From: Gracilaria domingensis
Taxonomy: Eukaryota; Rhodophyta; Florideophyceae; Gracilariales; Gracilariaceae
Reading direction: 5' to 3'
Length of the DNA stretch: 64,000 nucleotides
Assembly: GCA_022539475.1 (NCBI GenBank)
Contig: VCMS01000159.1
Location: 141,376 to 205,375, forward strand
Within the stretch, counting starts at the first letter, position 1; each line of letters opens with the position of its first letter. The translations under genes and the position numbers were made by a program. Shown piece after piece: positions 37,922 through 64,000 of this stretch. The notes below the pieces were generated by a model. That model was given only the letters and a program-made list of their open reading frames with translations. It was not told the origin of the DNA and ran no database searches.

Positions 37922-40162
37922 TCATACCTCACCCTCAGCCGTCGAAAAACGCCCTATGTGCCTCACTAGAGCTTCAAGTGAACTCCTGTTATAAACACAG
38001 TATACACATCTGTACCCCGCCTCCACATCGTCAGAACCAGGACGCTCAAAAGTCCCTTGGTCACAGCAATCTGCAGTGCACCCATATATTCTGCTGTATA
38101 CTCTGTGTGATGGTGGTATTGTGCGCTGACTCCATCGTCGTGGAGCCCTTAACATGCAAATCATTTGCCCAGGGTCCATGCAAACGATTGCGGCAGAGCT
38201 CGGAGAGAACGCACAACGTAACCACTCTCGTCTGTCGCTCCGTGTTTCACTAAATCCGTCAACAACCGCACAAATCGTGCCTTTCTGCGCTGCGTTGGAT
38301 ACAACAGATCTGCATGCATCTCTAGAGCCGAGTGTGTCCTGGCATGCCACAACAAACCTGCTGTTCCGATTGGCGAGACGTTCGGCAAAGTAACTTTTGC
38401 CACTTCCAGCTAGTCCGCAAACAACGATCAACCGCGGCAACTTCTTCAACGGACGTCCCTCCGTACGAAATGGTTCATGATAAGGTGAAAAACGGTCAGT
38501 GATATAGTATATCGAAGGGTATACAAGCTCCAGCGGATTGGCGTGCTCATCTGCCTCCTGCAGCACCGAATATCTCCACTGCAGCTCTGTGTGGTACTGG
38601 TTCAGAAACATTTCTTGGTCATAGCGCATCACCGGTCCGCCGCGTTGACGCTCCACCATTTCAACAGCTTCGCGAGCCGACATCTTAGGTTGCTGTCTTG
38701 TCAACGCGCATTTTGGGTCTCGACAACAACCGATAAACTGCTTGGTTCCGTCCCACCCGTTCACCAACGAACAGTTTGAACATAGCGTTGGACCAGAAGA
38801 GCAGCCGAACAGCATAAGCCACACAGCCAGCAGCATCGCAGTACGTGTGTCATTTTCCGCACCATGAATCAGAGTCATTCTCGCTTCCACAGCGTGAGCA
38901 ACAAACGCATCAATCTGGTGGAAGTTTAGTTCGTCCCTTTTGTGTAAGGGGAGAAACAAATTACGACAAGACGCACTAAACCACTTCGACGGCAAACGCT
39001 TTTCCTGCGCAACAGAAACAACCAGCTTGAAGCCCACACTTTCGATTGCAGCGAGCTGCGCCCTTGAACACACTGCAGCGCACACTGCCACACGCAGCGG
39101 GGCGAACCACATCAACTTCTGTGGCAGTGCGACCGTAGTAGCAATTCCCTCGCCATCTAGAAAAGCCCAACTGTATGCTATGTAGTTCGAAGCAGATGGA
39201 GGCAAAGTGTCGTCAGCCCTTAACGGCACTGTGTTCTCTCCCATGTTGGAGCGGACATCATTCATGACTTGGTGGTGTTTCGCCTTCTGTTGAGGCGATA
39301 AACGTTCCCAGAAGAGCGACTCGTACGGAGGCGGGTAAACATGCTGAACTGCAGCATCGCGCGGCACGAAGACCACATCCAGGCCAATGTACAGGACGTT
39401 TGGCAAACATCGAGCCAGAAGTGACGCCCCTCGACCTCGACCAGACTCCGGCGCGTCGAGGATCAGCACAGCATACCACACATCCAACGCAGCGAACCAG
39501 AATTGTTTGGCCGCGCATCGAGCTTGAGCGCGGTATAAATACGAGCCGGCAACAGACGGGTCAAGGTGGACGAGCGAATCGGCTTCGGACAACACGCGGG
39601 GGTGACGTGGATCAAGGCGCGCCGCGGCGATCATGCGAATGGTTGCAATCTGAAGCTGCATTTGTATCGAAGTGTGAGTTTGTTGAATCAACGCGGTCAG
39701 CTGATACAAGTCGTCAACCACAGACTCATACTGCGGCGACAATGTGGCGGCGCTTGTGGCAAGCTGTAACAAACTGGCAACTTTGGCAGCCGCGTGAAGC
39801 TGTCGTGCGGGTTTGACTGGCGTGCGAGCGGCAGAACACGGTGGAGTGAATAGCACCTCAAAAGTTGTGCGCGGTAGCCCAACAGCTGCGCGGGCGTGTT
39901 GCGCGTGAGGCCAGAACACGGTAGCACGTCGCGGGTGAGTACTTGCAAGAAACAGTGGTGGGTGCGACACAGATGCGGAGAGGTGGCGCAAGAGTAGCGA
40001 GCTGGTGTGGCTTCCCAGGGCGCGACACTCGGAGACGGAGGCAATGACGACGCAGTGAGCAGGTGGCAGCGAGTCAGGCAGTAAGGCGTGCAGGAAGCGT
40101 CCGGTGGCGCTTATGGCGCCATTGGAGGACGAGAAGATGAGTGCAGGGCCGGGCGACGCCAT
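37922..40162 (-). CDS. Phosphatase-like / polynucleotide-kinase-like fusion (746 aa)
   Basis: Residue numbers count from the ATG at 40162. That start is preferred to the ATG at 40216 because a TATA-like element at 40242-40249 places the transcript start near 40214. An unrecognised N-terminal region is followed by a helical, TPR-like part (about 145-240). A dual-specificity-phosphatase-like domain (about 352-455) follows, where the P-loop HCxxGxxRT reads HGAENDTRT (433-441), so the catalytic Cys is Gly. After a Cys-rich linker comes a P-loop kinase domain with GLAGSGKS (583-590), CQDTLGS and VVDGFSETRSDRREW. That series is the polynucleotide-kinase pattern of 5'-end phosphorylation enzymes. 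The RTIPPSHRVYSRIY segment also fits. It may act in RNA or DNA end repair. It is intronless. Confidence 0.78.
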   Translation of the reverse strand: MASPGPALIFSSSNGAISATGRFLHALLPDSLPPAHCVVIASVSECRALGSHTSSLLLRHLSASVSHPPLFLASTHPRRATVFWPHAQHARAAVGLPRTTFEVLFTPPCSAARTPVKPARQLHAAAKVASLLQLATSAATLSPQYESVVDDLYQLTALIQQTHTSIQMQLQIATIRMIAAARLDPRHPRVLSEADSLVHLDPSVAGSYLYRAQARCAAKQFWFAALDVWYAVLILDAPESGRGRGASLLARCLPNVLYIGLDVVFVPRDAAVQHVYPPPYESLFWERLSPQQKAKHHQVMNDVRSNMGENTVPLRADDTLPPSASNYIAYSWAFLDGEGIATTVALPQKLMWFAPLRVAVCAAVCSRAQLAAIESVGFKLVVSVAQEKRLPSKWFSASCRNLFLPLHKRDELNFHQIDAFVAHAVEARMTLIHGAENDTRTAMLLAVWLMLFGCSSGPTLCSNCSLVNGWDGTKQFIGCCRDPKCALTRQQPKMSAREAVEMVERQRGGPVMRYDQEMFLNQYHTELQWRYSVLQEADEHANPLELVYPSIYYITDRFSPYHEPFRTEGRPLKKLPRLIVVCGLAGSGKSYFAERLANRNSRFVVACQDTLGSRDACRSVVSNAAQKGTICAVVDGFSETRSDRREWLRCAFSPSSAAIVCMDPGQMICMLRAPRRWSQRTIPPSHRVYSRIYGCTADCCDQGTFERPGSDDVEAGYRCVYCVYNRSSLEALVRHIGRFSTAEGEV

Positions 40163-40241
40163 GCGAGCAACACCGTTTGAGCTGCGACAGATGTGCAGCC
40201 TTCGACGGGTGCTCAAGGAATCGGGATGCTTGCTAGTCGGC

Positions 40242-40856: not shown

Positions 40857-42686
40857 TCACTGCGACTCGTCCCACCAGAAGCGATATCGTGCGATATCTC
40901 TCTCCACACTCATATCTAACGGATCGTTAAAGCTCACCGGCCCAGTTGCATCGCCGTAACGCAAACATGTTGTGTCACCACTGCCATAGCTGAACGTGCC
41001 AGCACCACACTTCTCACATTCAGTTGCTCCCGCTTGTCTGCTTACGAACCCAGCTGCACACTTCTTGCACGGTCGCGGCGTAGAGCACCGGGGGCACATA
41101 GAACTCAGCAAACTTTCATATGTTGCCACCACTCGAAAAGTTCCGGCTGCGCACTGCACACACTCATTTCCAGCTTCTCCGCTCACAGCCTTTCCATAGC
41201 TGCCCGCGGCGCATGGCGAACAAGTCCCGTTCACAATTCCGAGATTAGCCGCTAGACGTCCCCGACAGCCACACGAAAAGTCGACATCACGAACTTCATT
41301 TCCGGCGCATTCATCACATCCTTCGAAGCTGAAACTGCCATAATAGGACCCCGTACACGGTGGGCACTGCGAAACGCCGTCTTCGGATATCCAACATTCA
41401 TTCCTTAGACAAAACGAACGGTTACCGCTCGATACAAGCTGAGTACCGATGGCACAGTTTGTCTCTTCATCCAAGCATTCTTGGCGGGACTCATCGGGCA
41501 CCATTCCTTCAGGGCACAGTTCACAGCTTGTTGCCCCATGGTCTGTAGAAACAGTGCCAATGGGGCACCGAATGCACTCAGCAGCATCAGATTCCGAACT
41601 GAAGTGCCCTGCACCACAGAGGCTGCAGAAGCGCGCAAATTCTGTCTCACGAATATGTGTTCCAGGCGCACAGCTGCCATTCACGGCAAGTGTATCCAAA
41701 TCTGGATGAACCCCTCGCATGCAATGCGAATTCTGCACGCCAGCTCGGATCACTTCGGCACAAGGTGCGCAGTGTAGAGTAAGACCCCCAACGCTTCCCT
41801 CCGATCTGGAACACGGAACGCACCTTTCTTTCTCCATGTCGTATCGTTCATCCGTATTGCAGCGTTCGCAGTCGCCGGCCGATGTTTGGATGAAACCTTG
41901 AGGACACGGTCCGTTCACTTGCCGGCAAAACCTTGATCCATGCTCGTATGATGTGGTGTTTGCTGGACAATCATAACACTGAGGATGAACACTGTATCCT
42001 TGAACGATTCTACCATACTGGCCGGGGTCACATGGTACGCATCTCGTTGATCCAAAGGGTTTCTCGGGTTTGGAACCTGCTTGGCATGGTGTACATTCCG
42101 TAGATGCTGCCGCGCTGAACGTCCCGGGTTGGCAAGGCAGACATGGATTGTACCCGTTAGTATCTGTACCAGCTGGGCATGGGGAGCATTGATCAATCGA
42201 GGTAGCTCCGGGAGGAGCCGCAGATCCTGGAGGACAGAGCTTGCATTCTAAAAGGTTTTCTTCGTCACTGTATCCTGCCCGACATGGCTCACAGGGGTTT
42301 GTGTCTTGTTCGCCCCATCGAAATGTGATAAAAGTTCCAAGCGGACAAGAGACACATTCGGAAGAACGCTCTGAAGAATATGTGCCGTTTGAGCATGGCG
42401 TACAAGACTCCGAGCCGGCGTGGGAAAACGTTCCAGCGGGACAATTTCTGCATCTACCCGCACTCTGAGATCCAGAGAATGGGAGGTATTTCCCGGGCTC
42501 ACATTGCATACAGAACGTGGCATTTCTTGAATGTTGGTATGTTCCAGGAGGACAGAGCTCGCAATCGCATGTGTCGGGAATCCGAAACGAACCTCTCGGA
42601 CAATCGCACGCGGACGCAGTTGTGATGCATAACAGCAGTGCGACGCTCAATATGATCCGTATCATGTCATTAGCAGAGGTGGACAT
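40857..42686 (-). CDS. Large secreted cysteine-rich protein, GCC2/GCC3 repeats (609 aa)
   Basis: A signal peptide (about 8-26, IRIILSVALLLCITTASA) is followed by more than ten ephrin-receptor-like cysteine modules, for example CPPGTYQHSRNATFCMQCEP and CPAGTFSHAGSESCTPC. They run to about residue 575. A short Cys-free tail ends at the TGA at 40857-40859. There is no membrane anchor. The start may be the ATG at 42686 or the next in-frame ATG at 42665. A ttaaataa element at about 42718 sits close to the first, so the second could be the real one. It belongs to the same family as the 33748-34551 gene, and both flank the LPMO-like and kinase-fusion genes on the same strand. It is probably an extracellular matrix or recognition protein. 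Confidence 0.88.
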   Translation of the reverse strand: MSTSANDMIRIILSVALLLCITTASACDCPRGSFRIPDTCDCELCPPGTYQHSRNATFCMQCEPGKYLPFSGSQSAGRCRNCPAGTFSHAGSESCTPCSNGTYSSERSSECVSCPLGTFITFRWGEQDTNPCEPCRAGYSDEENLLECKLCPPGSAAPPGATSIDQCSPCPAGTDTNGYNPCLPCQPGTFSAAASTECTPCQAGSKPEKPFGSTRCVPCDPGQYGRIVQGYSVHPQCYDCPANTTSYEHGSRFCRQVNGPCPQGFIQTSAGDCERCNTDERYDMEKERCVPCSRSEGSVGGLTLHCAPCAEVIRAGVQNSHCMRGVHPDLDTLAVNGSCAPGTHIRETEFARFCSLCGAGHFSSESDAAECIRCPIGTVSTDHGATSCELCPEGMVPDESRQECLDEETNCAIGTQLVSSGNRSFCLRNECWISEDGVSQCPPCTGSYYGSFSFEGCDECAGNEVRDVDFSCGCRGRLAANLGIVNGTCSPCAAGSYGKAVSGEAGNECVQCAAGTFRVVATYESLLSSMCPRCSTPRPCKKCAAGFVSRQAGATECEKCGAGTFSYGSGDTTCLRYGDATGPVSFNDPLDMSVERDIARYRFWWDESQ

Positions 42687-48714: not shown

Positions 48715-50310
48715 ATGTCAACTGACTCCTCGCAGCAACCCAAGGCGTGGGGCATCCTTTCGTTGCAAAACGACGTCCAAACAGGTCTCGAGAGCCTCTT
48801 TGCATCATACATGAAAGCAGATCCGCCACTTGAGGGAGATAATCTTTTAAAAGTGATCAGAGAAGACTTTGGTCCAATGCAGCTTGCGAGTCCCAATGTT
48901 GTAAGTCATTATGACATGCTGAAGCGCATCCGAGTTTTTCTCGAAACTCGCGCTATAGTCATACTCCGAAATCCGAGAACTGGTTCACTAATTGGCAAAC
49001 GTGTCATCGCGGCTATATGGAATGAAGAAGAGCACTATGAGGAGCGAAAAAAGGCTTTGGAATATTTAGATGTTGTCCGTAGGGGTGACGTTGTGTTGTA
49101 CTCTGCCACCAGCACTTCAACTTCACCGCCTTCTATCCCATTTCGTCTTCAAGAACCAGACGCGTCATCCACGGCTGGACCGGCGCCCCCTGCGCCAGCA
49201 GTATGGCGACGGACGGAACTGTGGTCACAAACAACGACCGCATGGTGATGACGCGTATGAAAACAAACAGTCCACTTCGCCGCAAAATACCGCTCGTGTC
49301 GAGACAAATTTTGCGGAGATCTCGAAGAGGATTGGGGTGATCATATTTCGACCTTCATGGACTTCTGTACGGACCAAAACCTACGTGGTAACGAAAGAGC
49401 GCAGTATCTTCATTATTCTTTACATGGAGACGCCTTACATTTCTACAGAACGAATGTCCGCGACAAGATACGGTCTTGGGGATCTGTTGTAAGCGCTTTT
49501 AACGACAGGTATTCTTCCCTAACACCAGAAAAGACATATCAAAGAAGCTAGAATCCTTGCATTTGACCGACTTCATGAAGTCCGACGTGTCCCCACGAGA
49601 AGCTCTCGACATCCTCATCAAAGAAATTGACAGACTGTCACCTATGTCCCATACGGAAGACCGAACCGACCGTTGCAAGAGAAAGTTTCTCAGCCAGTCC
49701 CGCCAGGGAATTTCTTTGGCACGCAATGCCTTGTCACAGACTGAGTCAAAACACTTTGCATATCGAGAGCTCTGCTCTGAATTGTTCAGTGCCGAATTCA
49801 ATGAGCGTAAATAAGCTGAAGAGGATAGACGTGTGAAAATGAACTCACAGTCGCACGATACAGACGACGTACAATATCGCCCACGTTTGACTTCTAAAGC
49901 AGTGAACATCACCATTGAAGAACCTGATGACCCTGAAGCTCTTTTCTCGGGACCAGGTCTATTTGGAAGAACCCTAACGAGTCGCTCTTCCTTTAAGGCA
50001 GCTAATGGCATGCGCCCAAACAACACGCGCCGAGATACAGACATACCAGCAATTCTGCATGCGTGCTGGAACTGTGAGAAGAACTGTCGGTTGTACTCTT
50101 GTCTCCATCCTGGCAATGAAGCCCTCTCTGGACGTCATTTTGGTGGCAAACGACGCGGGTGTTTACAAACCCTTACACTTGCTTCTTGTAGCAGAAGGAG
50201 AGTCAGGGTAGAACAGCCAGACACTCAAAAAGACCAACGTGGGCCCAGAATCCACCAAATAAATAAACGTAGTATGCCCATGGGAACGTCTGTGTTCTCT
50301 TTTTGCTAGT
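48715..50310 (+). pseudogene. Ty3/gypsy-type gag remnant
   Basis: The ATG at 48715 opens a 177-codon frame (MSTDSSQQPKAWGILSLQND). Shifted frames continue with the typical gag core: EEDWGDHISTFMDFC, QYLHYSLHGDALHFY, and SWGSVVSAFNDRYSSL (about 49330-49540). A helical region follows, then a knuckle-like C-x2-C-x3-C-x4-C at 50064-50102 in which the usual His is Cys. At least three frameshifts and a TAA near 49812 break it. No protease, reverse transcriptase or integrase follows, so the element is 3'-truncated or its pol was deleted. Confidence 0.6.
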
Positions 50311-50639
50311 TAGGTGCATTAGAATAAGATTATGGGACGAAATTAGTCAAAAAATCTGCAAAAATTGCGTATAGGGCTATGTGCAAGCAATTATTTTCAG
50401 TTTTTCGTATACTACGCCTTCATGTACTAGGGCTTTTTCTGGATTCAATGCAGAACAGTTGACGTACGCCACGATTGCTAGTATATGTTCATGAAATGAA
50501 AGTGTCAGACGTATTATTTGTTGTCGTGTGAAGACATCATGTGGTGTCCACCTGTACCGCCATATTTACGTTCGCCAATTTTCTGCAAATACTCTAGAAT
50601 AGTCATCATTACTACGACTACCTAGTAGAACATTCATCT

Positions 50640-51524
50640 TATGAAACCGCGCGCATGCATCTCGCCACCCCCATACCACTTCAAGTTGCATTCTACTTAC
50701 AAGAGGCTACCGCCACCACCCTCCTCTATCTCCGCATCTGCGAAAGACAACGGCCCAAACCCTTTCGCCACATCATCGCCCTTTTCCTCCTCCTTTTTCT
50801 CTTCCTCCACATCTTCCCAGCTCCACTGCTCCTGATATCCCTCAACGCTGCTTCCCTTCCACACCGGCTTCGGAACACACCTGAATCAAACCCTAGTCTT
50901 CTTCTTTTTCTCCATTTTCTCCTTCTTCTCCTTTCCAACCTTCGGCCTCACTTCATCCTCCTCCACCTCCAGCTTTCTCGCCACGATTGGCCACTTCTCC
51001 CCTCACTTACTCTTTCGGTCCCTCTTCTTTCCTCCATTACCCGCATCAATTGCATCCTCACCCAAACTCTCCGTAGCCGACACAGAATCCCTCGCATCCT
51101 CATCTGCATCCACACGAGCTCCATCGACCCCAACCCCAGCTCCGACCCCGTTCACAATCCTCAGCGCAGGAGTCACCGGAGTACCTTGGACTTGACGTAT
51201 ATCCTCCCGCTTCTCACTGAGTTCCTTCAGCTTCCCCTCCATCCCTTGCACTCGACCCATCAACTGTGTTTGCCCATCCTCCAATCCCCTCAGCTCCCTA
51301 GCAACAAATCCTGTGACCTTCTTCGTCAGTTGACGCACATCCTCACCAATGCGGGTCCCCATCGCCCCTGTGCACCCCAACATCGCCATCGACCACCAGT
51401 CCAGCTCATCCTTGTCCTCCCCTTCATCTTCCTTCGCAAAAATCCTCTTAATCTTCTTATGCGACCTTTCCCCATCGCTGGGATCCCACGTCCACTTCAC
51501 GTTCAAATTTGACTTGCCCCTCAT
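50640..51524 (-). pseudogene. Coiled-coil/acidic protein, broken by two TGA
   Basis: An ATG at 51524 opens MRGKSNLNVKWTWDPSDGER. A Trp-containing segment (KDELDWWSMAMLGCTGAMG) and a coiled coil (about residues 65-110) follow. The frame meets a TGA at 51003-51005 but continues in phase as basic and acidic coding sequence. It crosses a second TGA near 50893 into VPKPVWKGSSVEGYQEQWSW and an acidic tail ending in TAA near 50702. Nothing identifies its function. Placement beside the other polyproteins suggests it belongs to the same class of element. Confidence 0.45.
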
Positions 51525-51544
51525 GACCAGATTTCAATGAGCGG

Positions 51545-51670
51545 GAACGTATCGGATTGAAGAAGGGAAAGGAAACGGAAAAAGAGGGAAGGGAACGGGA
51601 ACGGGAACGAGGGGGAACGGAAACGAAAGAGATCCGAAACGAAAGGGATCCGAAACGGGAGAAGACGAAA
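51545..51670 (+). repeat. GGAAC/GAAAC simple repeat
   Basis: This purine-rich tract of ggaacg, gaaacg and gatccgaaac units lies immediately upstream of the coiled-coil protein start. Confidence 0.8.
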
Positions 51671-52108
51671 CTCTATTCGTGCGTAGGCTCTCCGCGAACT
51701 TATCACGGCGCGACAACCCTGTCATGTATGTACGCGCGTTCACTACCACTGCCTAGCACCCGTTATTATCCCTGTGAAACAAGTTGTTTCTCAAAAATAA
51801 TTTCATAAATTCGAGCCCAATTCCCCAGTTTTCAACCGTCTCCCCCTCTTCATATTACCAATTCTTCATCATACATGTACCTTATTCCTTACTTATATCA
51901 CTGTCTCGTCTCATAGTATAGTATAAAAGCAACCAGTCTAAGCAATCGTTTATGAAAACCATGTTCTCTACATGTTAGTAGCCTCCACTTTTAAAGAAGC
52001 GTAATAGTAGAGTTATTTTCCTATGTATTGTAACTCACAAACAGTCCACGTTCTAACGAATAAATATACCGCATCTCTACAACCATCAAAAGCCCCCTTT
52101 ACTCTCCT
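51671..52108. other. Intergenic, divergent
   Basis: No gene is seen between the minus-strand coiled-coil remnant and the plus-strand membrane-protein remnant. A tataaaag lies at about 51924-51931, ~180 bp before the next coding-like frame. Confidence 0.4.
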
Positions 52109-53285
52109 TTGGTACGAATTCGAAAACGAAACTGTTCCGCAATGGTCTTTCGCAATACACACCAAGTACGGGAAATCCCGCTAAACAATCGACTGCGTTC
52201 TGTACGTATCCAGCTGGATGCTTTCCCACATGCAACGTACATCACTTTCAACAACTGCCTTCAGTTACAGTACGACTTCGATGCTGAAGAAGCTCACATT
52301 CGTGGGGTGCAAACTCTCATCACTCCCGCACTGCAGAATGAGCTCAATGATCTCTATGACATACTACATGACAAACCCCGTCACGAAAGTATTCTGGAGC
52401 ACCCACCCTTTACTCACGCTATTTGAACTCTCCCAGAGCTTTCGAATTATATATATCAGTCAAGATTCTACTCTCGGAATCCTCTCAGCATGCTTTCGCC
52501 ACCTTCAATGGTGTTATTTGCTTCACTTTTAACGGTAGCCATAGGCGCGCTTTACCGTGTCATGAAGCCCGTCTTGGCTCAAGCTCTTCTATTCAAGCGC
52601 TCCTCTCGCCATGCTCAGCTGGGTTTCAACATTCTCTATAGCATTCTGGAGACCATGTTACACATTATTCTCTTCGACCGCGCCGTTTCCCTACATGCCG
52701 CAAGATACGGTACCCAATAAATACTTGGGAATAGCGGTCGGTGGCCTTTTCGCTCTCAATATCTCCATCTTCGTCACCTATCAACTCCGTCCATCCCCCT
52801 CCAATCTTATAGATTCTGTCAGAACAGCCTCTATAGCTTTCTTTCCAGCTGGATTTCTATTCGGGCTATTCACTATCGTCGTGAACGCACTCTCTATCTT
52901 CTACTCTACAGGCAACACCTTTAACAACATTGTACCGCTCTCGCACCGCGTAGGAACTCGATGGGAAAGGCTCTGTCTCTACAACCGTTGTGTCCTGCAC
53001 TCCTTCAGAAAGGCTCTCTTTTTCCATGATTTATTGCTCTCCATCAGAATGTTTTTGAACAGAGTGGTCCCAGTATTCTCCGCCCACACGCTTTCTGAGT
53101 CGCTAAAACCATCAGCCTTTCGTATGTACAGAGACATCCCCCCTCTTCTTACAAACATCCTATTCGTTGCACTTCTTGTGCGTGCCGGTATCGTCAAGCA
53201 GGAACCACGGGTCAACCTCAAGAGGTACTTGTGTGCACTCGGAGAGCATCCTAGACCCCAGACTCGGCATCTATTGGAGAAATAA
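52109..53285 (+). pseudogene. Multi-pass membrane protein, broken
   Basis: A frame from 52109 (first ATG at 52142) is stopped by TGA at 52424-52426. It continues in phase through two hydrophobic segments to 52720, and shifts near 52700 into the frame ending at 53285. The combined ~390-residue product has about six hydrophobic segments, including LGIAVGGLFALNISIFVTYQ, IAFFPAGFLFGLFTIVVNAL and LTNILFVALLVRAGIV. A basic C-terminus follows. I do not recognise the family; it could be a transporter-like or viral-type passenger. One nonsense codon and one frameshift mean it is probably inactive. Confidence 0.4.
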
Positions 53286-53519
53286 TTTAGACACTAACTA
53301 CGATAGTTATTAGTAGTAAATAGATAAAGAACAAACATTGAACTCTTTCTTAATGAATTCCCTTTGTCGAAACATATAAACATATATATAGCACTTGTGA
53401 CATAGAATTTTACGCAAAACAACAATCAATATCTTCAAAAACAACAAAACATGGTGACGACATCTCTGGATATCCACTCGTCAACTACAATATCATAAAA
53501 TCATAAATTCATGGCTGGT

Positions 53520-54638
53520 TCAGTTCTCCTCCCCATCCTCTGTCTCTTCCTCCATCCCCTGCGCTCCATAGTTCTCGTCTTCTTCGTCGCTGTCCCCTTC
53601 CTCCACTATCAACTAATCCTCTTCGTCCTCGTCCTCCCCATTCTCCACCAATTCTATGTTCACCGCAGGACCACCTGTGTTGTCCTTCATTCCCATGAAG
53701 TCGTCTTCTTCCACAAAAGTCGGTCGAAAATAGTGATTCAGATGAACTGCATCAGGCAAACTGTACTTCTCTGGTACCATATACATATGGTAGCAAAACA
53801 GTGGGTTTTCCGGAAATCTTCCATCTTTAGTGCCCGCACCGGCATGAAATACATCCCCCCTCCCAATGAACAAAGACATAGGTGGGACAAAGAACTTTCT
53901 CACAACCATTCCTCGTGCCAACCCTTCAAATGCCTCTGCTGTTACAGCAAAGTGACTGTAGGATCCTTCAAATATCCAAAGTGGGAACGACACAGTTCCG
54001 GAGACCATCACAAAGTACCCCGGGTTCTTCCCCTGCAGCTTGTCTTCGTTTGTCAAGGTCTCGAAGTCGGTATGTAGTTGCTGTCGCTGGCAAGCCACTC
54101 CGGTACATAAGATCCTCCCTCCGGTCTTCGGTGCATACATTCTCTCATTCGGTTGCTTGTTGTCTTGTAGCCCCAACGCCGCACATATCTGACCAACCCG
54201 GGCATCTAACAACGCCCTCTTCTTCACAAGCAAATGCGTCTCCGGTTTATTCTCCAGCTCGTCCACTATACCTCTTCTCGTCGTCGTACACCTCCCATTG
54301 TCCGCGTCGATTATAGAAATCCATGTAGTTCGATTCTCTGGTACCGTGAGGTCCGGGGCTTCTTCGAAACTTTTTTTGAAGAAGTCTAATAACTCGACGC
54401 TTACATCCCCATCGATGAGCTTGCTGGGACTTTCAGCCATCTTCAAAAGGTCGTTGTCACAAGCAGAGTCTTCCAAAATACAGAAACCTCTCTCCCGAAG
54501 CTCAGCCTTCTTGTTCACAAAATACATATACGCGACGGAATCGTTCTTCACTGCCTCCGCCCATAGGGTCCTATCATCAACCTCCCCTTCTCCTACCGCC
54601 TCGTTGAGAGCTTCTGACTCTGATAGGCAGCATGCCAA
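53520..54638 (-). pseudogene. 2-oxoglutarate/Fe(II) dioxygenase-like domain (C-terminus of broken polyprotein)
   Basis: The 341-codon frame has no ATG at its beginning and connects upstream to other frames. The iron-binding triad is visible: His189-x-Asp191 in RQQLHTDFETL and His265 in GRGDVFHAGAG. A candidate 2-oxoglutarate Arg (Arg274) follows, and then the strand FCYHMYMVP. This matches 2OG oxygenases, the superfamily that includes TET/JBP and AlkB DNA oxidases; the substrate cannot be told from sequence. The frame stops at a TAG (53613-53615) inside an acidic tail that continues 30 more codons, still acidic, to TGA at 53520-53522. The upstream half (about 1-110) is a helical linker. Confidence 0.62.
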
Positions 54639-57401
54639 AATACAGCATGATGTACTCCTTTAAAGTCCTTTGGGTCGAGCAAATGGCCTCGGTGCTCCTT
54701 CTAGAGATGTATCGCATCCATCCACGGATATACCGACTTAATCCCGTCCACTCCAGCAGGCCACTTGGTAGGAACTGCTTTCAACAATTTCAACCACGAA
54801 TTCCCCCTTCGTAAGGTCCTTCGTCTGCTTTCTTCAGCCCCGGGGGTAGAATTTCCCGGACTGTGTCGTCGAAAGGATCCGTGTCGTCTCCTCGCGTCTC
54901 AACATTCGGCGCTGAATCAGAGTCCTTGTCGCTGCTGAAGGAGATTTGATGAGCTTTGAGGAAGCTCTGACCGCTTCTTTCCGAGCTTACGCAGATGACT
55001 AATGAAGATTGTTTCATCTTGGGGCACTTCGTTTACTTTCGCCTTCTTCTGAGCCCTGAGGTTGTTATCGCTCATCATCTTCCTTCGTGGACAACTTCTT
55101 TTGGTGCTCGTTCTCAACCCCGCACCACATGCCTCCACTAAAACCACGTCGCTTACCCCTTCCTGAACGTCTCCCCCGGCATTCTTCGCCTTAACAAGTT
55201 TAAAACGCGACGCCCGAGTATCCGGTTTAGTGACTTGGGTCGTCGGCGTGGTCGCTTTTCCCCCTCCCGCCGTAGCAGACGGCCCCACAGTCGAATTGAA
55301 ATCCACCCCGACGGACTTCTTCAGCTTTTCACGAGCATAAGCCACCCTTCTCTATATCTTTCCGTCCAAAAGCTTCTTTGTCGCTGCAGTTTCCATGCGT
55401 GCGGCCTGTGTCGCAAGATACTCACGAAGGCTGAGTTTCTCAAACCTAGTGACTTCAATCTGCATCTCGTACACTTCCTTCAGAGAGAGTCTCTTTCTTT
55501 TCGATACTTCAACGGCCAGCTCATTTAGGGACCGGCAGCATATAAAGAATTACTTTCGTATATCTTCCAAGCGGCCCTTCAGTTTGGACTCTCGTCTCCT
55601 CGCAAAGTATGCTGCCAGGGCGTCCAGAGTGAAATCGGTTGTGTCCTCATCCATAGAAAAGAACTCATCACTAGGGATACATGTAATACCAATTTCATTT
55701 TACTCCCGACACACACTTTCCAAACGCTTCAACAATCGAGGACTCTTAGCCACCTTAAAACCCATCTCCACAAATCTCGATAGATGCCTGATCTGATACT
55801 GACGTATGATTCCGCATACACTTAAGGCACCCGCTACAGCGATCCTTGTCATGTTGTTCAACAGTTTCTTCTCCTCTTCAACCATCGCGGTTATAAAGGG
55901 TACAATGGAATAAACCTTGTCGGCGAAGTTCATAAGTCGGGCCTGCTTCAGTCCATCGTTCAAAGCATTACCCAGGCTCAGAAGCTCCTTCGTTTTCATC
56001 TTTTGTCCATCCTTTCTCCTCCATAAGAAAACGGTAAGTCCTTTACACAGTTTCTTTATCTTTGCATCCTTCTCACATAGTACCTTGCGTGCCACAAGAA
56101 GATGAGCCCCATCTATAAAGATGCACGTAACTTTCACGCGATTGCCCTCCACCATCTCCTTCTCAGACTTATCCGTGATCAAAATAGCAACACTCATCGT
56201 TTCAAGGGCCTGAAGAAACCCTTTCCTTCGAATCTCCGCCTTCAGAGCTTCAACATGCTCCCGAACTGTTCCTCTCACAGTTGCGTCCGGGATTTCGATT
56301 AGGTCGATGTCAAACTTCACGGACTCGTACTCATAATGGTCCAGGGTGAACTTGAGCGATGCCAGACTCATATCCACGTCATCCAAAGGTAGTTCATCAC
56401 CTTAGTCGAATAGTTCATTGACTTTTCCAGCCAAGTTCTCCTTCACCAAAGCAACGTCATCATCATCCACTTCATCCACATCCACAACTTCCATCCTAGC
56501 TCCACTGCGACTCCCAGCCATTGCAATCGCTTCAGCAGTGCTATTTATGGACGACCCAGAGAGCACATTCATCTCTGGTCGCTTCCGTAATGCAGAGATC
56601 GCACTATCTGGAGTTGTGGTCAATTGTGCAGTTCCTACCTTTGTACCACCCTGGTCTCGCTCAGATAGAGTTTTAGGCACAGGCTCAGGCGCTGGGGGCG
56701 GTACTTCCTTCCCCTCTTTGTTCTTCTGTTGTTTGCCTGGTGCTTTGGTCTGGGCTACCTGAGGTGGAAACTGATTCCCACTCGGTGTACGCGGGGGTTT
56801 CGGTGTGTCCGCCATACGCACTCGTTTTCCTCCTGTCGTGGACGATGCATTGGTATGCTTTGATTTCTTACTCGGCACCTGCGGCGTGGTGCCCTGAACG
56901 GTCTCACGCGAAGCCATTAATTTTAAGTCCCAAGCATAGAAACCCATCTTTTTTAAGTCCGCAACGGTCTTCGGAATGCAGTCCATCCGTACAATTAAAG
57001 GGATACGGGTACGTCGTATGGAGCTCCTTCGATACATCAGCTCGCCATATACCGACTATATCCTCTCCCGGCTTCCCTTCCAGTGTGTGACCATGCATTT
57101 CTCTTCGATATTCTTTGCGGTCGCCGGCGGACTCGATGGCCACCACATCAGCCGTGCCAATTGGGACCTTGTCCCGTCCATTCCCGGCCATAAGAAGCGT
57201 CACCTTGTCCCCCGGTGCGGGTTTCGCTTTCCCCCGGTTAGAGCTCATACTGGTCTCCGGATTCTGTGCTTCCTCACTACTCTTCTTCCCTCCTTCTTTT
57301 GTCTTCTTCGCACTTCGAAGATGCGACGCCATGGGGTTGCGAACTTTCCGCGGCTTTCGGGAGCGCCTCATCTGCCGGTTCTCCAATCCTCTTGGCTCCA
57401 T
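54625..57401 (-). pseudogene. ParB-like polyprotein N-terminus, broken, leading into the dioxygenase
   Basis: The ATG at 57401 starts a basic region and a small domain (GDKVTLLMAGNGRDKVPIGT) in one frame. Near 57000 coding moves to a second frame that stays in phase for over 2 kb. It is crossed by TAA at 56402, 55700 and 55550 and TAG at 55352. Its 56386-55700 part resembles a ParB/sulfiredoxin-fold domain: IEIPDATVRGTVREHVEALK, then AEIRRKGF, then the box FIDGAHLLVARKVL, where ParB has DGxHRxxA. Coiled-coil, basic and acidic linkers follow, and two more shifts lead to WLKLLKAVPTKWPAGVDGIK and the dioxygenase. The ParB assignment is moderate; the continuity is strong. Confidence 0.5.
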
Positions 57402-57854
57402 TATATAGCTTGTTTGAATTTAGCTTCGTCAAACACCTATAAAGATTGAATGCAGAACAAAGCGGTAATCGTATAATGCTCTGATCACGTCAGCAAACGG
57501 CGCACCCGCTCGGTTTGAACACAGTACACGCTTCGCTGTCGGGTGAAGTGTCGCACCCGTTCGTATCGCAGATTTGTAGTGCAGCTCGCGGAAATGCTCG
57601 CGTGAACATTCGCGTCACTTTCAAAGAGTGGTACAGGCGGTTGGAGAGGGTGTAGAAGGCTTAGATGCATACCAGACAGCATGATCAACCCTCACTGTTC
57701 CCCCCTGGTACCCCACCACCCTACAGGGGGTGGGAAAGCAGGTTGTAGGTAAAACGTAGAGCTGAGTAGAGCTACGCAGAGCACATTTGTCGTTTCACAT
57801 CGCAGTTTATACGTATGTACGCAGAGGCAACAAACAATTTCCCGCGGATTTGGT
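57402..57854. other. Intergenic, no gene
   Basis: A tatataatgg overlaps the first ATG of the ParB-like gene, so that ATG may not be the true start. A run of CCCCCTGG / CCCACCACCCTACAGGGGGTGGG near 57700-57735 can form a short G/C stem. Confidence 0.4.
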
Positions 57855-58121
57855 TTAATCGATGTTCAGTTTGAATGCCGAAGAGCAGAGCCATTCGAGA
57901 ATGAGGGTAGTGGTGGCAGCACCAATCGCAAATGTACTGGTATTTTGATCATGGCTGTTTGTCGTGAAAGCAGTCTCAGAAGGATCCTCATCACGTTCAG
58001 TGGGGGGCGGTGACTGTACAGATCGTGTCATTGACGTGTTCTGCTCTTGGTGTGGGTGATAAGAAGTGTGTTGGCGCTGTATCATCAACACGGTGTGAGC
58101 CAGAAAGTGCAATCCACGCAA
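57855..58121 (-). pseudogene. C-terminal fragment of a secreted or GPI-type protein
   Basis: An 88-codon frame has a Ser/Thr/Pro-rich part (SVQSPPPTERDEDPSETAFT) and a hydrophobic end (FAIGAATTTLILEWLCSSAF), like a GPI-anchor signal. No convincing start is present. The call is weak. Confidence 0.22.
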
Positions 58122-58368
58122 TATGCGCTAGCTCGTATCAAACTGAGCGCCTGAGAGATACATCCAGCCCGGCGGTGGGTGTGTAGCGCAGTCATTAGAC
58201 ATACCCAGATCAGCAGCTGCGGCCACGGCGGCTGCAGTCGTCAAGGCAGCGCTATTATGGGTGTTTGCGCCTTGCGACGGTCGTCTGCATTACGTGAAAG
58301 GCGCGGCGAACGTCTGGCAAAGAGGAATGTGAGCGCTGTAAAACGTCATGCTCGTTACTACATTGGTA

Positions 58369-58830
58369 TTACCAGTACGGGGAGTGGGAAAACCTAAGCT
58401 GCATGTTGTTCCGGACGCTCTTGTTGTTGAGTGCGACGGATGCGGTGGTCGAATGTTGCGATGACGATGGCGTCTGGACGCTTTGCGCCTGCGCAATGCA
58501 ACCGCTCCTTGGGTGCGCGTCGGCGCTGGAGCGCAAGCGGCGAGAGTAGAAGCGGAGAGCGTACAGGAGAATTGTATGCAGCCCTACGATGGCGGCTATG
58601 ATGATGATGCAAATAATGATGTGGGGGGAGCCGGTCGGTGGCAGAGTACGCCGATTCCGAGTCGTATAGGACCATATCTCATCTGCCCCATGCGCGCTAA
58701 TATCCTCTCTACACGTGGCCTGATACCTGGTTTCACAGTCTCCAGACGGCGGTCTGGACACGCCGCATCCGGCCACCAGGGGGGTTACTACTAGGTGTAC
58801 TAGGTGATTTTACACAAGTCTGCGTACTAC
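58369..58830 (-). pseudogene. C-terminal fragment of a single-pass membrane protein
   Basis: The frame has no ATG. It encodes a Cys-containing ectodomain end (VAGCGVSRPPSGDCETRYQ), a strong membrane segment (IIICIIIIAAIVGLHTILLYAL) and a ~60-residue cytosolic tail. It ends at 58369 and is truncated at its 5' end near 58830. Confidence 0.35.
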
Positions 58831-58904
58831 ACCCGCTCTCGCAACCCTGTTCACGCCCTCCTGCGTACGACTAACACCCGCTCAAATACGAATTTAGAAT
58901 AACG

Positions 58905-58986
58905 TTTCATCACCGCCGTCTACTACTCTTTCGAGAACTCCTCCAGCGAGTTTCATCGCCACCGTCTATTCCGCTTTCGCGAGTTC
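58905..58986 (+). repeat. Direct repeat, ~36 bp x 2
   Basis: tttcatcaccgccgtctac at 58905 recurs as tttcatcgccaccgtctat at 58951, each followed by ctttcgagaactc or ctttcgcgagttc. It lies ~60-140 bp upstream of the methyltransferase polyprotein ATG. Confidence 0.75.
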
Positions 58987-59047
58987 TTGCGAGAGTTACA
59001 TAGCGATCATCGGAAACAGACCCCTCTGTGGTCTTAACAGCAGAGCG

Positions 59048-60543
59048 ATGTCGACTACCGCATCTTCCGTGGCATCTACGGAGTCTAGCTGCGGCAAGAA
59101 GGATACTATGGCGACGCGGTTCCTTCGTTTGTTCAGCATACTTCTCGAGCTGAGAGACTCGTTTGCGGCGTTTCGAGGCGGCATTGGTTCCCCTCGTCCG
59201 GTTGGATACACGTCTCTCGTTAAATACGCTGTCGCAAACCGTGCCAGTCTGGCTTGTGCACGGAAATTTCTCACGGATGTTACGAAGATCACGTACGCAA
59301 ACTATACGCCGCAGGAGCTAGTGAAGATAAGTACCGATATTAGGTTCATAAGTCGGGTCTAGAAGTATTTCCGTATCATTGACGTGGATGACTGGAGTGA
59401 GGATCGTTGGGTGAGGGATCTTTTCGAATGGAGTTTGGATAAGAATGTGGATGGCGGGAATTCTTTTATGGAGCGTGTGTTCTAGAATGACTCATTCAAA
59501 GAGCATGGTCCCGCATCTAAGCAGACGAAGAAAACTACCTTCTGGATTGAGCCTGCTACTCGTTTTCAGCAGTTGCTCTATCTATCCCTAGTGAAGCGTA
59601 TCACTATGGAGAGGCTACTTCCAGTTGCGAAGAAGGCGAGGACTGCAACTGGTTCTCGGAGACAGGTACCGTTTGTTGATGGTTTCGTCATTTCACACCA
59701 AGCGCACATAAGGCGGATGGGTTATGCTGTGCAGATGGTATGTCTAGGATGGGATTCCTTTGGTTCCAGTCTTGGATTTCGTGTGACGCAGAACAAATGC
59801 TGTTACTGTTTCTTGCCATGGAGAAAGCGACGCTTTCTTTTGGCGCAATTGAGTCCCGTTCTTCCGGATACAGCCCAGCATCGGTGTTCAAAACATTGGG
59901 GATCGAAGCGAAGGCAACCACAGAGATCAACGCTACTGTGCCTTGGGTTCACATTGTTTCGGATGATATCGATACCAAACTAAGGGATTTGTCAAAAGAA
60001 TTCCTGTCCGATTTGAACAAGGTTGTCTTAAATGGATTTCTGTTCAAAATGTTAGCTACGACCAATTGGGAACTGCTGGAAGGCTTTCAAAGAAAACTTC
60101 GGACAAGGTTGCCATCTCGTTTTGATGCTTTCTCCGATGAGTATTTGGCTACTCTTCGTGCCGCTATTGTCCAGCTGAACCTGAGACCTTCCTAGCAGCC
60201 ATCTCAAGCCACTCTGTCAGGACGTCAGGAAGGAAACAACATGGTCACGGTGAAGATTGAGGATAAGGTTACGGCACAGAGAACCATTTCCTTCATGCCA
60301 ATAGCTAGGGCGGTGGGTAAAACATCTGGTAAAACATCCGGTGCAGACCCGGGTCCGGTGGATGTCATTGTCATAGACGACACGAATGATGAAGACGATG
60401 GAGCGCACCGCCTTTCTAATGTTCCTGATGGTATTCTTCCACCTCACGACTTTGGCGATGTAAGGACTACGAATGCTCTCGGTGTGGTCAAAAAAACATG
60501 GAGAAACAGTTCTCTATGCATTGCGTTGGTTATGAAGAGTTAG
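59048..60543 (+). pseudogene. N-terminal part of the methyltransferase-SET polyprotein, broken
   Basis: The ATG at 59048 starts a coding-like frame that runs to about 59750 through TAGs at 59360-59362 and 59483-59485. It then shifts into a frame ending at TAG 60193-60195 and continues in phase to about 60490. A run of seven A (60490-60496) sits exactly where the methyltransferase frame takes over, so one indel would join them. The region is helical and charged (WSEDRWVRDLFEWSLDKNVDG, WELLEGFQRKLRTRLPSRF), with an acidic VIVIDDTNDEDDGA like a SUMO-interacting motif. No enzyme motif is seen. The role may be targeting or DNA binding (inferred). Confidence 0.45.
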
Positions 60544-62183
60544 TGGAGACTCATGGTACACTGTTTCCTTCCGATAATTCCCTAGAGAGCAATGTTCAAC
60601 TCGTACTCACGCACCCACCTTATGGTATACGTGACAGTGTATATGATGAGCTTCCCTACGAAGATATGGTTAATACTGCAGAAATGATGGCCTCAATGCT
60701 TCTTTCTGGCGCTCATTTTATAATGCTCAGTACTATCGAACAGTTCGCGGACTGGGAGGAGATTCTACATGAGCACAAATCGGAGAATGCAGTGGGGAGG
60801 CAAAGTGCTTCGTTCATAGTCGACCCCACACCGATGCAATTCATTCGCTCTCGTACGCACACTTTGAAGGACCCTGGAAGGAACACAACACGGTTGTTCT
60901 CTGCAACCGAGTATGCCGTGCACGGAGTCCGGAATGGAAACGCGTACGAGGAGCAGAAGGTGATGGTGAACTACAAAACTTTCAACTACGTTCCCACGCA
61001 GTACCCCGGGCATTACTCCATTATCGATCAAGTCCCGCATCTAGAGGCTTGTGAAGGACTCCGTTGGAGGGTAAAGAAGCGTTCCAAAATACACTCGGTT
61101 CAGCAGGTTCGCCCCGAACAGAAACCGAGGGCACTGCCAAAGGAACTCATTGCCAGGTTCTCAAATCCCGAGGACGTCGTGGTTGATCCCTATAGTGGAA
61201 CATTTTCCCGTGCCTTGGCGTGCATGTACATGGAAGAGCCCCGACGCTTCATTGGATGTGAGAGGGATGACCAGTGCTTCGCTCATGCTGAACAAAATGT
61301 TGTAGTGATGTATGCGAGGAAGGTTTGGGGTACCGAGTTCAACGCAAGAATAACTGTCAGTAATGAGGTCGTTCAAGCCTCGTCTTTAGTACAGACAAAG
61401 TTCCCTGAAGGGAAGCAAAGAACCTCGCGTATATGGACCACACTGAAAGGATTCCTGCCATACCAATGTTTCCCGTTTCATATCAATTCCTACATCCCAA
61501 CTTTTTGCAGAGAACCGAGTCTCATCGCGCAGCACAAGGAGAAACCGGTGCACGAGTGGCCTCTGAATCTCCAAGGCACATTGGAGACGATGGATGTACA
61601 GACTTTGCTCGCCGCTGAGGCAGCAGGTTTATGGTTGTACAGAAAGAAATCAAACATGAAACATCCCATAAGTAGAGATGGAGTTTTCAGTACTAGATCG
61701 TTCTCGGAAGAAGAGGGTATCGGGTACTTCTATGGGACATTGGTATATCGTGACATAAGCCGACGCAATGCAAAACAGATGAAACACGGAAGCCGACTGC
61801 TCGATGCCACCGTTTCTCGTTTCAGGAGGTATTGCATGGAAGTGAAGCTGAAAGGGCAGATGTACAGCACGCTTCCTCACTATGATTCCGGAATCAATAC
61901 TGCGATTGCCTGGGTAGTACCCGCTCCTTTCTGTATAGCGGGCTACATCAATGATTCTTCGTACCGGGATGCGGACGAAGAGATGGATTTGGGCGAGATG
62001 GAGCCTTACCGAGGCCGCTTACCAAACGTTACTATTCGACAGCCCTCCGAGCATCAAACTACCACATTGGGTACACTCGCAAGTTATAGACTACTGTTGG
62101 TGACGGCTACAATGGATATTCATGAACACGACGAACTGTACGTAGACTATGGACCCAGCTATCCATGGGAGAGGTATTTGTAA
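60498..62183 (+). CDS. Beta-class amino DNA methyltransferase fused to a SET domain (561 aa)
   Basis: The frame is intact from ATG 60498 to TAA 62183. Residues 33-115 hold the catalytic motif LTHPPYG (37-43), the (D/N/S)PPY box of N6-adenine or N4-cytosine methyltransferases with His in the variable place. Residues 212-260 hold PKELIARFSNPEDVVVDPYS, then GTFSRALACMYMEEPRRFIG and CERD, the AdoMet-binding motifs. Catalytic before AdoMet motif is the beta-class order. Residues ~385-561 look like a SET histone-lysine methyltransferase: DGVFSTRSFSEEEGIGYFYG, YINDSS where SET has NHS-like residues, and DELYVDYGPSY. It may write both DNA and histone marks. It is probably the 3' half of the polyprotein starting at 59048. 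In-frame coding may continue beyond the TAA to a TGA at 62448. Confidence 0.68.
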   Translation: MEKQFSMHCVGYEELVETHGTLFPSDNSLESNVQLVLTHPPYGIRDSVYDELPYEDMVNTAEMMASMLLSGAHFIMLSTIEQFADWEEILHEHKSENAVGRQSASFIVDPTPMQFIRSRTHTLKDPGRNTTRLFSATEYAVHGVRNGNAYEEQKVMVNYKTFNYVPTQYPGHYSIIDQVPHLEACEGLRWRVKKRSKIHSVQQVRPEQKPRALPKELIARFSNPEDVVVDPYSGTFSRALACMYMEEPRRFIGCERDDQCFAHAEQNVVVMYARKVWGTEFNARITVSNEVVQASSLVQTKFPEGKQRTSRIWTTLKGFLPYQCFPFHINSYIPTFCREPSLIAQHKEKPVHEWPLNLQGTLETMDVQTLLAAEAAGLWLYRKKSNMKHPISRDGVFSTRSFSEEEGIGYFYGTLVYRDISRRNAKQMKHGSRLLDATVSRFRRYCMEVKLKGQMYSTLPHYDSGINTAIAWVVPAPFCIAGYINDSSYRDADEEMDLGEMEPYRGRLPNVTIRQPSEHQTTTLGTLASYRLLLVTATMDIHEHDELYVDYGPSYPWERYL

Positions 62184-62731
62184 TTCTCCCATGCTTTATA
62201 GTTTGACGTAGTACAAACTGTTGTAGTGTATTTCATAACTACTGCGTCATTTACTGAATGCATTCATCATTCCAGTAAACCTATTGTTGCAGGAATCGAC
62301 ACCGTGGCACAAGGACACATTGTCGTGCTAAGCAAAGAGCTACTAAGAATACTCCACAGCGGTCAGAGCTACTACCTCAAAAGCAACACCTCAGAATTAA
62401 CACCTCACACCCGGGAGGTTGTACCAAGGAGCAGGGGACCTTCATCATGAAGGGACCCGACCGACGGACCTGGCACATAGAACATAGCCAATGAAAAATA
62501 CGGCCATGGGAAATGTAGAAATTGGTATGAATGTCTGCCATAGGGATGAACCAGCTCCCTCAGGGCTCATGAATCACTGAAGGTCTCAATCATCTGCTTC
62601 AAAAGGTTCACAAGCTTCCTCCCTTCCGCTCTTTCAACCCACACTACGATCAAAACTCCAAAAGCTTCCGTTTTCCCACTTCGTAATCCGAACATAATCC
62701 CTTCCTTTTCACGCGATTCTGAAGCGCAATC
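62184..62731 (+). other. Possible read-through extension and spacer
   Basis: After the TAA the frame meets a TAG at 62199-62201 and is then open to TGA at 62448-62450, including HIVVLSKELLRILHSGQSYY. It may be a former C-terminal extension or 3' UTR. From 62451 to 62731 nothing is seen. Confidence 0.3.
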
Positions 62732-63975
62732 ATGGCTCCACAAAAGTCCAGCAACGCGGAGGACCGGGAGACGAAGGGATCCCAAACAATCCCGCGATAT
62801 GGTATTGGCGTCGCTATACGCAAGAACCCTCCGCCTGCCGCGACCCAAAGGAGTACTCGACGACGAGCTCCGCGTGTCGGGCTTACTGGAAAGAAGTCTG
62901 GTTCGAAGTCAGGACTCCGGGCTTCGAAGGCAAAACCGAAACCGAAGCTGGGTGTTAGTACGACCACAACGGAAGTGACAGAGAGCGAAATAGTGTTACC
63001 ACACCACGCTCAGTGGGAGGGCGGGTTACATGACACATGGCTGCAGAGGAAGTGCCAAGAATAATCGACGATGCGAATGTGGAAGAGAACGGTGCCGAGA
63101 GATGTACGAAAGCGAAAGGAACAGGGATTAGAAATTTTGGAAACAATGTCATGGAAGAAGAGTTGGACAGACATGAAAGAGCAATCTCACCTGGTAAGAC
63201 GGGGGGCACTACAAACGATTTCATTACACCTCTACGTAGTAGGGACGAAGACGAAGCCGATGATATACATCCCACTGTACGTGCGCTCGCAACATCGCGA
63301 AGGGAGATCAAAAATCGGAACAATTCCCTTCATGCCGATCGTGCTAGTGACGAGGAAGAAGTCGATAATATACAGTCCTTTGTACGTGCGCCTGCACCGT
63401 CGAGGAAGAGTTTCCGGAATGGAAACGATTCCATTCATTCCGAAAGTTGTACGAATGAAGAAGAAGTCGACGAGATACAGCCTGCTTCTCGTACGGTCTT
63501 ACCATCGCAGAATAGTTTCAACCAAAAGAGATGGAAGGGTTAGACCTCGATTTCCTTTAGCGAGATGCGTAGGGAACGGACAGAGGTGGAATCAGAATTA
63601 CCAAGAGAGCCATGGAACGAAAGGGTTCGTAATGTGGCAAGTCGCCGGAAAATTAGCCGTACGCTTCCATCTCGTGCTCTTGCTGGTGGAAACGAAGAAG
63701 GTGAAGAAGATGAAAGTCTAACGCCACGCTACGAGCTGTTGGACCAAGATTGGAGACTTGAAAGCGGGATCTCTTTCGAGTAGCCGAGGATTATCAAAGT
63801 CTGAAGATGAGCGTAAGAATAGCACAGAAAAGCGTCACGGAACTAGAGCTAAAGGTGAAGGAGCAAAATGTTCTAATACAATCACTTCGAAAGGCACTGA
63901 AGCGAGGAGCAACACGGAGGGACCGTGATTCGCACAGGGAAAGAAAAGATACGAGCATTGATGTGAACGACGCGT
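62732..63975 (+). pseudogene. Charged coiled-coil protein with 35-aa repeats, broken
   Basis: The ATG at 62732 starts a basic N-terminus (RRRAPRVGLTGKKSGSKSG). Near 63030 coding shifts by one into the frame of 63037. That frame carries three imperfect 35-residue repeats (63244-63348, 63349-63453, 63454-63540), each opening with an acidic DEEEVDNIQ-type block. TAGs at 63541 and 63781 interrupt it. A last shift gives a leucine-rich coiled coil (VTELELKVKEQNVLIQSLRK) ending in TAG near 63975. Its place directly after the methyltransferase gene suggests a structural or partner protein of the same element. No family is recognised. Confidence 0.42.
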
Positions 63976-64000
63976 AGTGTAGGGTAGTGAAACAGTATAC

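Follow-up and report, generated by a model that had tools for sequence, protein, structure and literature searches.

A Plavaka-related transposon of a red alga carries a predicted DNA amino-methyltransferase–SET fusion gene

Introduction

Can a mobile element carry, in a single polypeptide, one domain for marking DNA and another of the kind that marks histones? The question is raised by a 64,000-nucleotide stretch of DNA from the red alga Gracilaria domingensis (hereafter the window), near the end of which a long open frame had been read, from its letters, as a bacterial-type DNA amino-methyltransferase fused to a SET domain. This sequence-only reading placed the frame in a mobile-element protein that would write DNA and histone marks together, and saw in its intactness a hint of recent activity. 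The passages of PMC12730594 on captured genes describe transposons with a SET gene or a TET dioxygenase, and those of PMC8885841 describe, in rotifers, the fusion of a histone reader with an amino-methyltransferase of bacterial origin. Among the open-licence papers that our searches ranked highest, we found no DNA writer and histone-type writer that are spread together by a transposon in one polypeptide; such a protein may be in print elsewhere. If the reading is true, one could test whether red algae use amino-methylated DNA as a signal in chromatin and whether it helps elements to escape silencing.

Results and discussion

The reported frame and the decay of the window copy

The reported frame encodes 561 amino acids (Table 1). 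When positions 50287-64000 were shuffled 200 times by single nucleotides, no ATG-to-stop frame was longer than 263 amino acids, and the longest frame per shuffle had a mean of 128, which excludes a chance long frame. The frame is uninterrupted and contains, as had been described, a PPY box, a DPYSG/CERD site from residue 230 and DELYVDYG close to its C-terminal end. Motif IV thus precedes AdoMet motif I, which is the permuted, beta-class order that had been assigned to it. Profile searches bore out one of the two domains: the PF01555 match scores 48.8 bits, above the Pfam cut-off of 26.7, whereas the SET match (PF00856) stays at 16.4 bits, under its cut-off of 22.4. Had only the window frame been available, there would be little ground for calling a SET domain. 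The catalytic box likewise holds in part. The PPY is present, but the full motif reads HPPY, against DPPY in the intact copies of lineages 1 and 2 described below, and falls outside the pattern (D/N/S)PP(Y/F/W).

Table 1 Features of the window element and of the gene A copy within it (positions in the window)
Feature	Position	Strand	Basis and remarks
Left terminal inverted repeat	50287..50313	+	27 bases identical to the right repeat on contig C509 (L053:6401-6427)
Region D	50722..51423	.	blastn 71% to copy C12; in relatives, both strands have open frames
Gene E remnant	52716..53276	+	blastn 72% to C12; 435-aa frames in copies C200 and C42
Gene C, broken	53613..57401	-	Pieces 53613-54638, 55700-56386, 56402-57037, 56904-57401
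Whole gene A remnant (DNA methyltransferase-SET gene)	59000..62183	+	tblastn of the 1057-aa intact paralogue; three frames
Reported open frame (gene A, 3' half)	60498..62183	+	561 codons; begins with ATG at 60498, stop codon ends at 62183
N6_N4_Mtase domain (PF01555)	60594..61289	+	Residues 33-264; Pfam E=1.2e-12
Motif IV, HPPY in the window copy	60612..60623	+	Residues 39-42
SET domain (PF00856)	61680..62153	+	Residues 395-552; Pfam E=0.012
Start of gene B, broken here	62732..64000	+	Contig C159 ends with the window; a near-identical stretch continues in C509

The frame is indeed open over 561 codons, but it covers just the 3' half of a gene of some 1055-1100 codons (gene A), the 5' part of which lies in two other frames. 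Residues 1-261, 262-510 and 497-1057 of an intact paralogue align by tblastn to positions 59000-59782, 59785-60525 and 60489-62180, respectively, and an in-frame TAG stands at 60193-60195 in the upstream part. The upstream damage hence amounts to two frame changes and one stop. One upstream frame (ORF 60241-60543) contains VDVIVIDD at 60358..60381 (+), a putative SUMO-interaction-like motif.

Both catalytic motifs of the window copy are altered as well. Its SET motif reads RDGVF (RxGVF), with an arginine replacing the first glycine of GxGVF. Among 19 rows representing 16 distinct places, neither HPPY nor RDGVF occurs outside the window, L001 (an excerpt of it) and L002 (its duplicate); other alterations in the listed motifs occur in L003/L011, L005, L006, L007, L008, L012 and L017. 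Compared with the intact lineage-1 copy, the window copy has a dN/dS of 0.64 (dN 0.059, dS 0.092), as for a decaying copy. Because of HPPY, RxGVF and the upstream breaks, we infer that the window copy is catalytically dead. Judged by its sequence, it is a remnant of a member of the N6_N4_Mtase family and not a working enzyme. The frame changes, the stop, the altered motifs and the dN/dS together run counter to the suggestion of an intact, recently active copy. The methionine at the start of the reported frame is kept in lineages 1, 2 and 4 and is one residue off in lineage 3; a shorter product starting from it is conceivable.

Intact relatives carry both domains in one frame

We searched the genome that the window comes from, which comprises 77.9 Mb in 680 contigs; the window protein found at least 90 matching rows there. 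Twelve phycobilisome matches in this genome (ten on contig C680, eight of them close to full length) fit a red-algal host, and going by their number, the eight may include phycoerythrin. The intact relatives were assigned to four lineages: lineage 1 comprises L009 and the window copy, and lineages 2, 3 and 4 are represented by L010, L057 and L058. Their identities to the window protein in the alignment are 87% (L009), 67% (L010), 35% (L057) and 31% (L058). In intact copies, gene A runs without interruption for about 1055-1170 codons when counted between stops, and the intact relatives read are roughly double the length of the window frame. L010 (L010:3839-7123:-) has 1094 codons from a TTG and 1055 from the first ATG, and L009 (L009:3638-6811:-) encodes 1057 amino acids; the N-termini of L057 and L058 are cut off by the limits of the fetched stretch.

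In all four relatives, PF01555 and SET match above their Pfam cut-offs within a single frame. The E-values for the two domains are 1.4e-14 and 2.5e-6 in L010 and 3.3e-14 and 8.8e-5 in L009, and those for SET in L057 and L058 are 1.3e-7 and 3.6e-7. The four PF01555 scores are 55.1, 53.8, 56.1 and 61.1 bits (cut-off 26.7), and the SET scores, which are modest, are 28.3, 23.3, 32.4 and 31.0 bits (cut-off 22.4). When the alignment was compared as a profile with the PDB, its first half matched DpnA, MboIIA, CcrM and RsrI, and its second half matched SETD8/KMT5A, EZH2 and KMT2 weakly (best E=0.0081).

The four-lineage alignment has PP, GTFS, GVF, YGT, YIN, NV and the final tyrosine as invariant motifs, and the linker between the domains also holds invariant residues. 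Motif IV is DPPY in L009 and L010, DPPF in L057 and EPPY in L058, so that three of the four agree with (D/N/S)PP(Y/F/W); the PF01555 match of lineage 4 begins at profile position 80, beyond its EPPY. The AdoMet loop of all four lineages reads D-x-(Y/F)-x-G-T-F-S, in contrast to FxGxG: the first glycine is kept and the second is replaced by phenylalanine. GxGVF is present in the four intact relatives, and YIN and the final tyrosine are unchanged across the five aligned sequences.

Between lineages 1 and 2, pN and pS are 0.146 and 0.78 in the methyltransferase domain and 0.155 and 0.64 in the SET domain, and pN is freer in the N-terminal part (0.27) and in the linker (0.24). With pN at about 0.15 in both domains and synonymous sites near saturation, both halves have therefore been kept by selection. 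Saturation of synonymous sites makes dN/dS uninformative for comparisons with lineages 3 and 4. On this comparison of sequences, we regard the methyltransferase-SET fusion as genuine and as predating the four lineages. The joining of the two domains that had been proposed from the window frame is thus upheld by its relatives.

Gene A is present in many copies

Stop-free rows spanning the whole query were found for every lineage. There are at least 12 for lineages 1 and 2 (12 of 90 rows, including the window and its duplicate on contig C509), at least 11 for lineage 3 (11 of 50) and at least 3 for lineage 4 (3 of 47); the remaining 44 lineage-4 rows are partial, nearly all of them to places already found for lineages 1-3. 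As the genome searches score the best candidates only, these copy counts are lower bounds. Every one of the best 150 of 328 candidates scored for PF01555 matched, and the same was true of the best 150 of 311 for PF00856.

L013, a lineage-2 copy, agrees with the L010 protein, in two pieces, at 1093 of 1094 residues. This near-identity suggests that lineage 2 has moved recently or that the assembly contains a duplicated stretch. The contig of L058 (C382, 115 kb) bears three lineage-4 copies that are 99-100% identical, with none elsewhere among the 47 scored rows. A 634-aa frame at C6:482972-484339 shares 38% identity with lineage 4 across query residues 479-973, which include both domains; it may represent a fifth lineage or belong to the host. 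When viral contigs were scanned, a single locus matched, at 27% and across query residues 215-269. Among 53 matching phage records, the best 10 were 23-26% identical and were generic DNA methylases or unannotated.

The carrier is a Plavaka-related DNA transposon

The carrier of gene A is a multi-gene, Plavaka-related DNA transposon of about 20 kb. In the copy on contig C12, 19,977 bp lie between the terminal repeats (CGTCTGTGTTTCCGG), and the gene order is D, C (-), A (+), B (+), F (-). Gene F of this copy is a Plavaka transposase (PF18759, E=3.1e-24), the protein of which has at least 60 matching rows in the genome. Copies C200 and C42 have gene E between D and C, and the parts read for lineage 3 preserve the C12 order for genes C, A, B and F. 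Genome-wide, the terminal word was counted 73 times and a reversed control once. With this transposase and these terminal repeats, the earlier description of gene A as a mobile-element protein proved correct.

Ten facing pairs of ends were picked by nearness, leaving out a pair on C469. Six of the ten are flanked by a 2-bp target duplication (chance 1e-5), which is missing in the other four. C12 and the window element (AA/AC) also lack it, giving 6 of 12 overall. The element termini, CGTCTGTG..CACAGACG, do not match the published ends of the fungal PlavakaA and PlavakaB; by these ends, the element appears related to PlavakaA and PlavakaB and not a member of either.

The window element starts at the left repeat, and its right end lies on C509, which differs from the window by 1 mismatch over 4683 bases. 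Over the last ~326 window bases, the two are 97.9% identical with 7 gaps. C509 may represent the same locus or a duplicate. The transposase part of the window element is expected beyond the window, where C509 shows only short frames. For genes B, D and E and the C-terminal part of F, Pfam gave matches below cut-off or none.

Copies of gene C (window 53613-57401 (-), L018:2-2398, L059:1-1755 and L062) contain IDGAH/VDGLHR, of ParB-like appearance, and those of lineages 1 and 2 also contain GFCIL...QLHTDF...GDVFHAG, which looks like a 2OG-dioxygenase; lineage 3 was read for the first part only. Searches of gene C against Pfam and the PDB lent no support to a ParB or dioxygenase assignment, and both parts remain motif-only leads.

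A proposed role and its rivals

An intact gene A protein would comprise an N-terminal region and a beta-class N6_N4 amino-methyltransferase, joined through a conserved linker to a C-terminal SET domain in which the catalytic tyrosine is kept. The N-terminal region presumably includes SUMO-interaction-like motifs. We propose that the protein would methylate adenine in the DNA of the element and lysines on nearby nucleosomes, and that element copies would thereby carry a joint DNA and histone mark that keeps them expressible. Lysine is suggested as the second target because of the SET domain. N6-methyladenine is suggested because lineages 1 and 2 have DPPY and lineage 3 has DPPF; the relevant passages of PMC8885841 give DPPY for bacterial N6A enzymes and SPPY for most N4C enzymes, and add that the N6_N4_MTase domain evolved 6mA and 4mC specificity repeatedly, so that the base is not readable from the domain.

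One protein writing DNA and histone marks together would fit this anatomy. We consider it fairly probable that gene A is a transposon gene for a dual enzyme and, at the same time, that its role is in some way directed at chromatin. The role that we favour, by analogy with the TET-bearing transposons in the passages of PMC12730594, is that the joint mark counters host silencing, and we put it forward tentatively. With similar reserve, a family of red-algal transposons can be pictured that would combine a single bifunctional enzyme, writing 6mA and histone methylation on the same chromatin, with gene C (maybe with ParB-like and dioxygenase-like parts) into a mobile epigenetic toolkit that would set its own chromatin state. 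The GTF of motif I, the EPPY of lineage 4, the modest SET scores, the weak SET matches to histone enzymes in the PDB, the absence of pre-SET and post-SET families from the Pfam matches, the half of the end pairs without a duplication and the termini unlike those of PlavakaA and PlavakaB all speak against our reading of gene A and its transposon.

It could also be that the DNA methyltransferase alone acts on chromatin and that SET is aimed at the element's own proteins (the transposase or the gene C product) or at other non-histone proteins. Many SET enzymes methylate non-histone proteins, and pre-SET, post-SET and chromatin-reader families are absent from the Pfam matches of the four intact relatives, both of which favour this explanation. 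In the PDB, SET nevertheless comes nearest to the histone methyltransferases SETD8, EZH2 and KMT2, weak as these matches are, and we judge a non-histone target rather unlikely. A further explanation would have the methyltransferase mark element DNA to control transposition, with any marking of chromatin secondary. In some bacterial transposons, methylation of the ends by Dam tells old strands from new ones, and the gene A methyltransferase is of the bacterial beta-class type, nearest to DpnA and CcrM. We counted the 16 four-base palindromes in the C12 element, in window positions 50288-64000 and in the host part. In this exploratory count, GATC is rarer than expected in both elements (observed/expected 45/78.7 in C12 and 31/51.2 in the window element), but it is low in the host part too (160/194.4), and CATG is low in both elements as well (104/139.7 and 61/78.4). 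CATG in the host part stands at 265/273.6. No clear methylation target emerged from the 16 palindromes in the two elements, and the terminal 400 bases of C12 at either end contain no 9-base word six times or more. We judge control of transposition improbable.

The protein might instead restrain its own element by setting repressive histone and DNA marks. According to the passages of PMC8885841 on bdelloid rotifers, a fusion of N6_N4_MTase with a chromodomain marks transposons for silencing. That enzyme is host-encoded, however, whereas the element itself spreads gene A, which has reached many copies, and self-restraint seems to us improbable too. Finally, the fusion could be an accident in which one long frame reads through two unrelated remnants. 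The window SET match, alone under its cut-off, would allow this; the same domain order, linker and motifs in one frame across four lineages, with constraint on both domains, make it extremely improbable, and we rejected it.

Comparison with known systems

DIRS elements encode an adenine-type methyltransferase domain, as the element of gene A is predicted to do; they are retrotransposons, and we know of no SET fusion in them. The proposed dual enzyme has another counterpart in N4CMT of bdelloid rotifers, which the passages of PMC8885841 describe as a permuted, bacterial-type N6_N4_MTase that was captured by a eukaryote, fused to a chromatin domain and linked to transposons. Unlike gene A, N4CMT belongs to the host according to the same passages; its motif is SPPY, its partner is a chromodomain (a histone reader), and it writes 4mC. 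Gene A is transposon-borne, has DPPY in intact lineages 1 and 2 and has a writer-type partner, SET.

The HarbingerS and MuDR transposons of Phytophthora are, in the passage of PMC12730594 that treats them, also DNA transposons carrying a SET methyltransferase gene; they belong to other transposase families, and that passage mentions no fusion to a DNA methyltransferase. The fungal TET/JBP Plavaka elements of the same source, as far as its passages describe them, resemble the present element in combining a Plavaka transposase with a captured epigenetic enzyme and in their 2-3-bp target duplications. Their cargo is a dioxygenase, and their termini are TGT..ACA or CATCA..TGATG, in contrast to those given above. 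Plavaka giant repeats of Amoebidium form, according to the passages of PMC11244446 that concern them, intron-poor gene clusters of up to 50 kb next to a Plavaka transposase. Those passages name tyrosine recombinases with matches in dinoflagellates or red algae, and they contain no SET domain or amino-methyltransferase.

Other genes in the window

Outside the element, two similar genes at 17334-19877 (+) and 22962-25652 (-) resemble ferric reductases or NADPH oxidases (PF01794, PF08022, PF08030). A frame at 37922-40216 (-) combines a dual-specificity-phosphatase-like domain (PF22784) with an AAA-like P-loop stretch that scores under the cut-off. Cys-rich proteins with Ephrin_rec_like repeats (PF07699) are encoded at 33748-34551 (-) and 40857-42686 (-).
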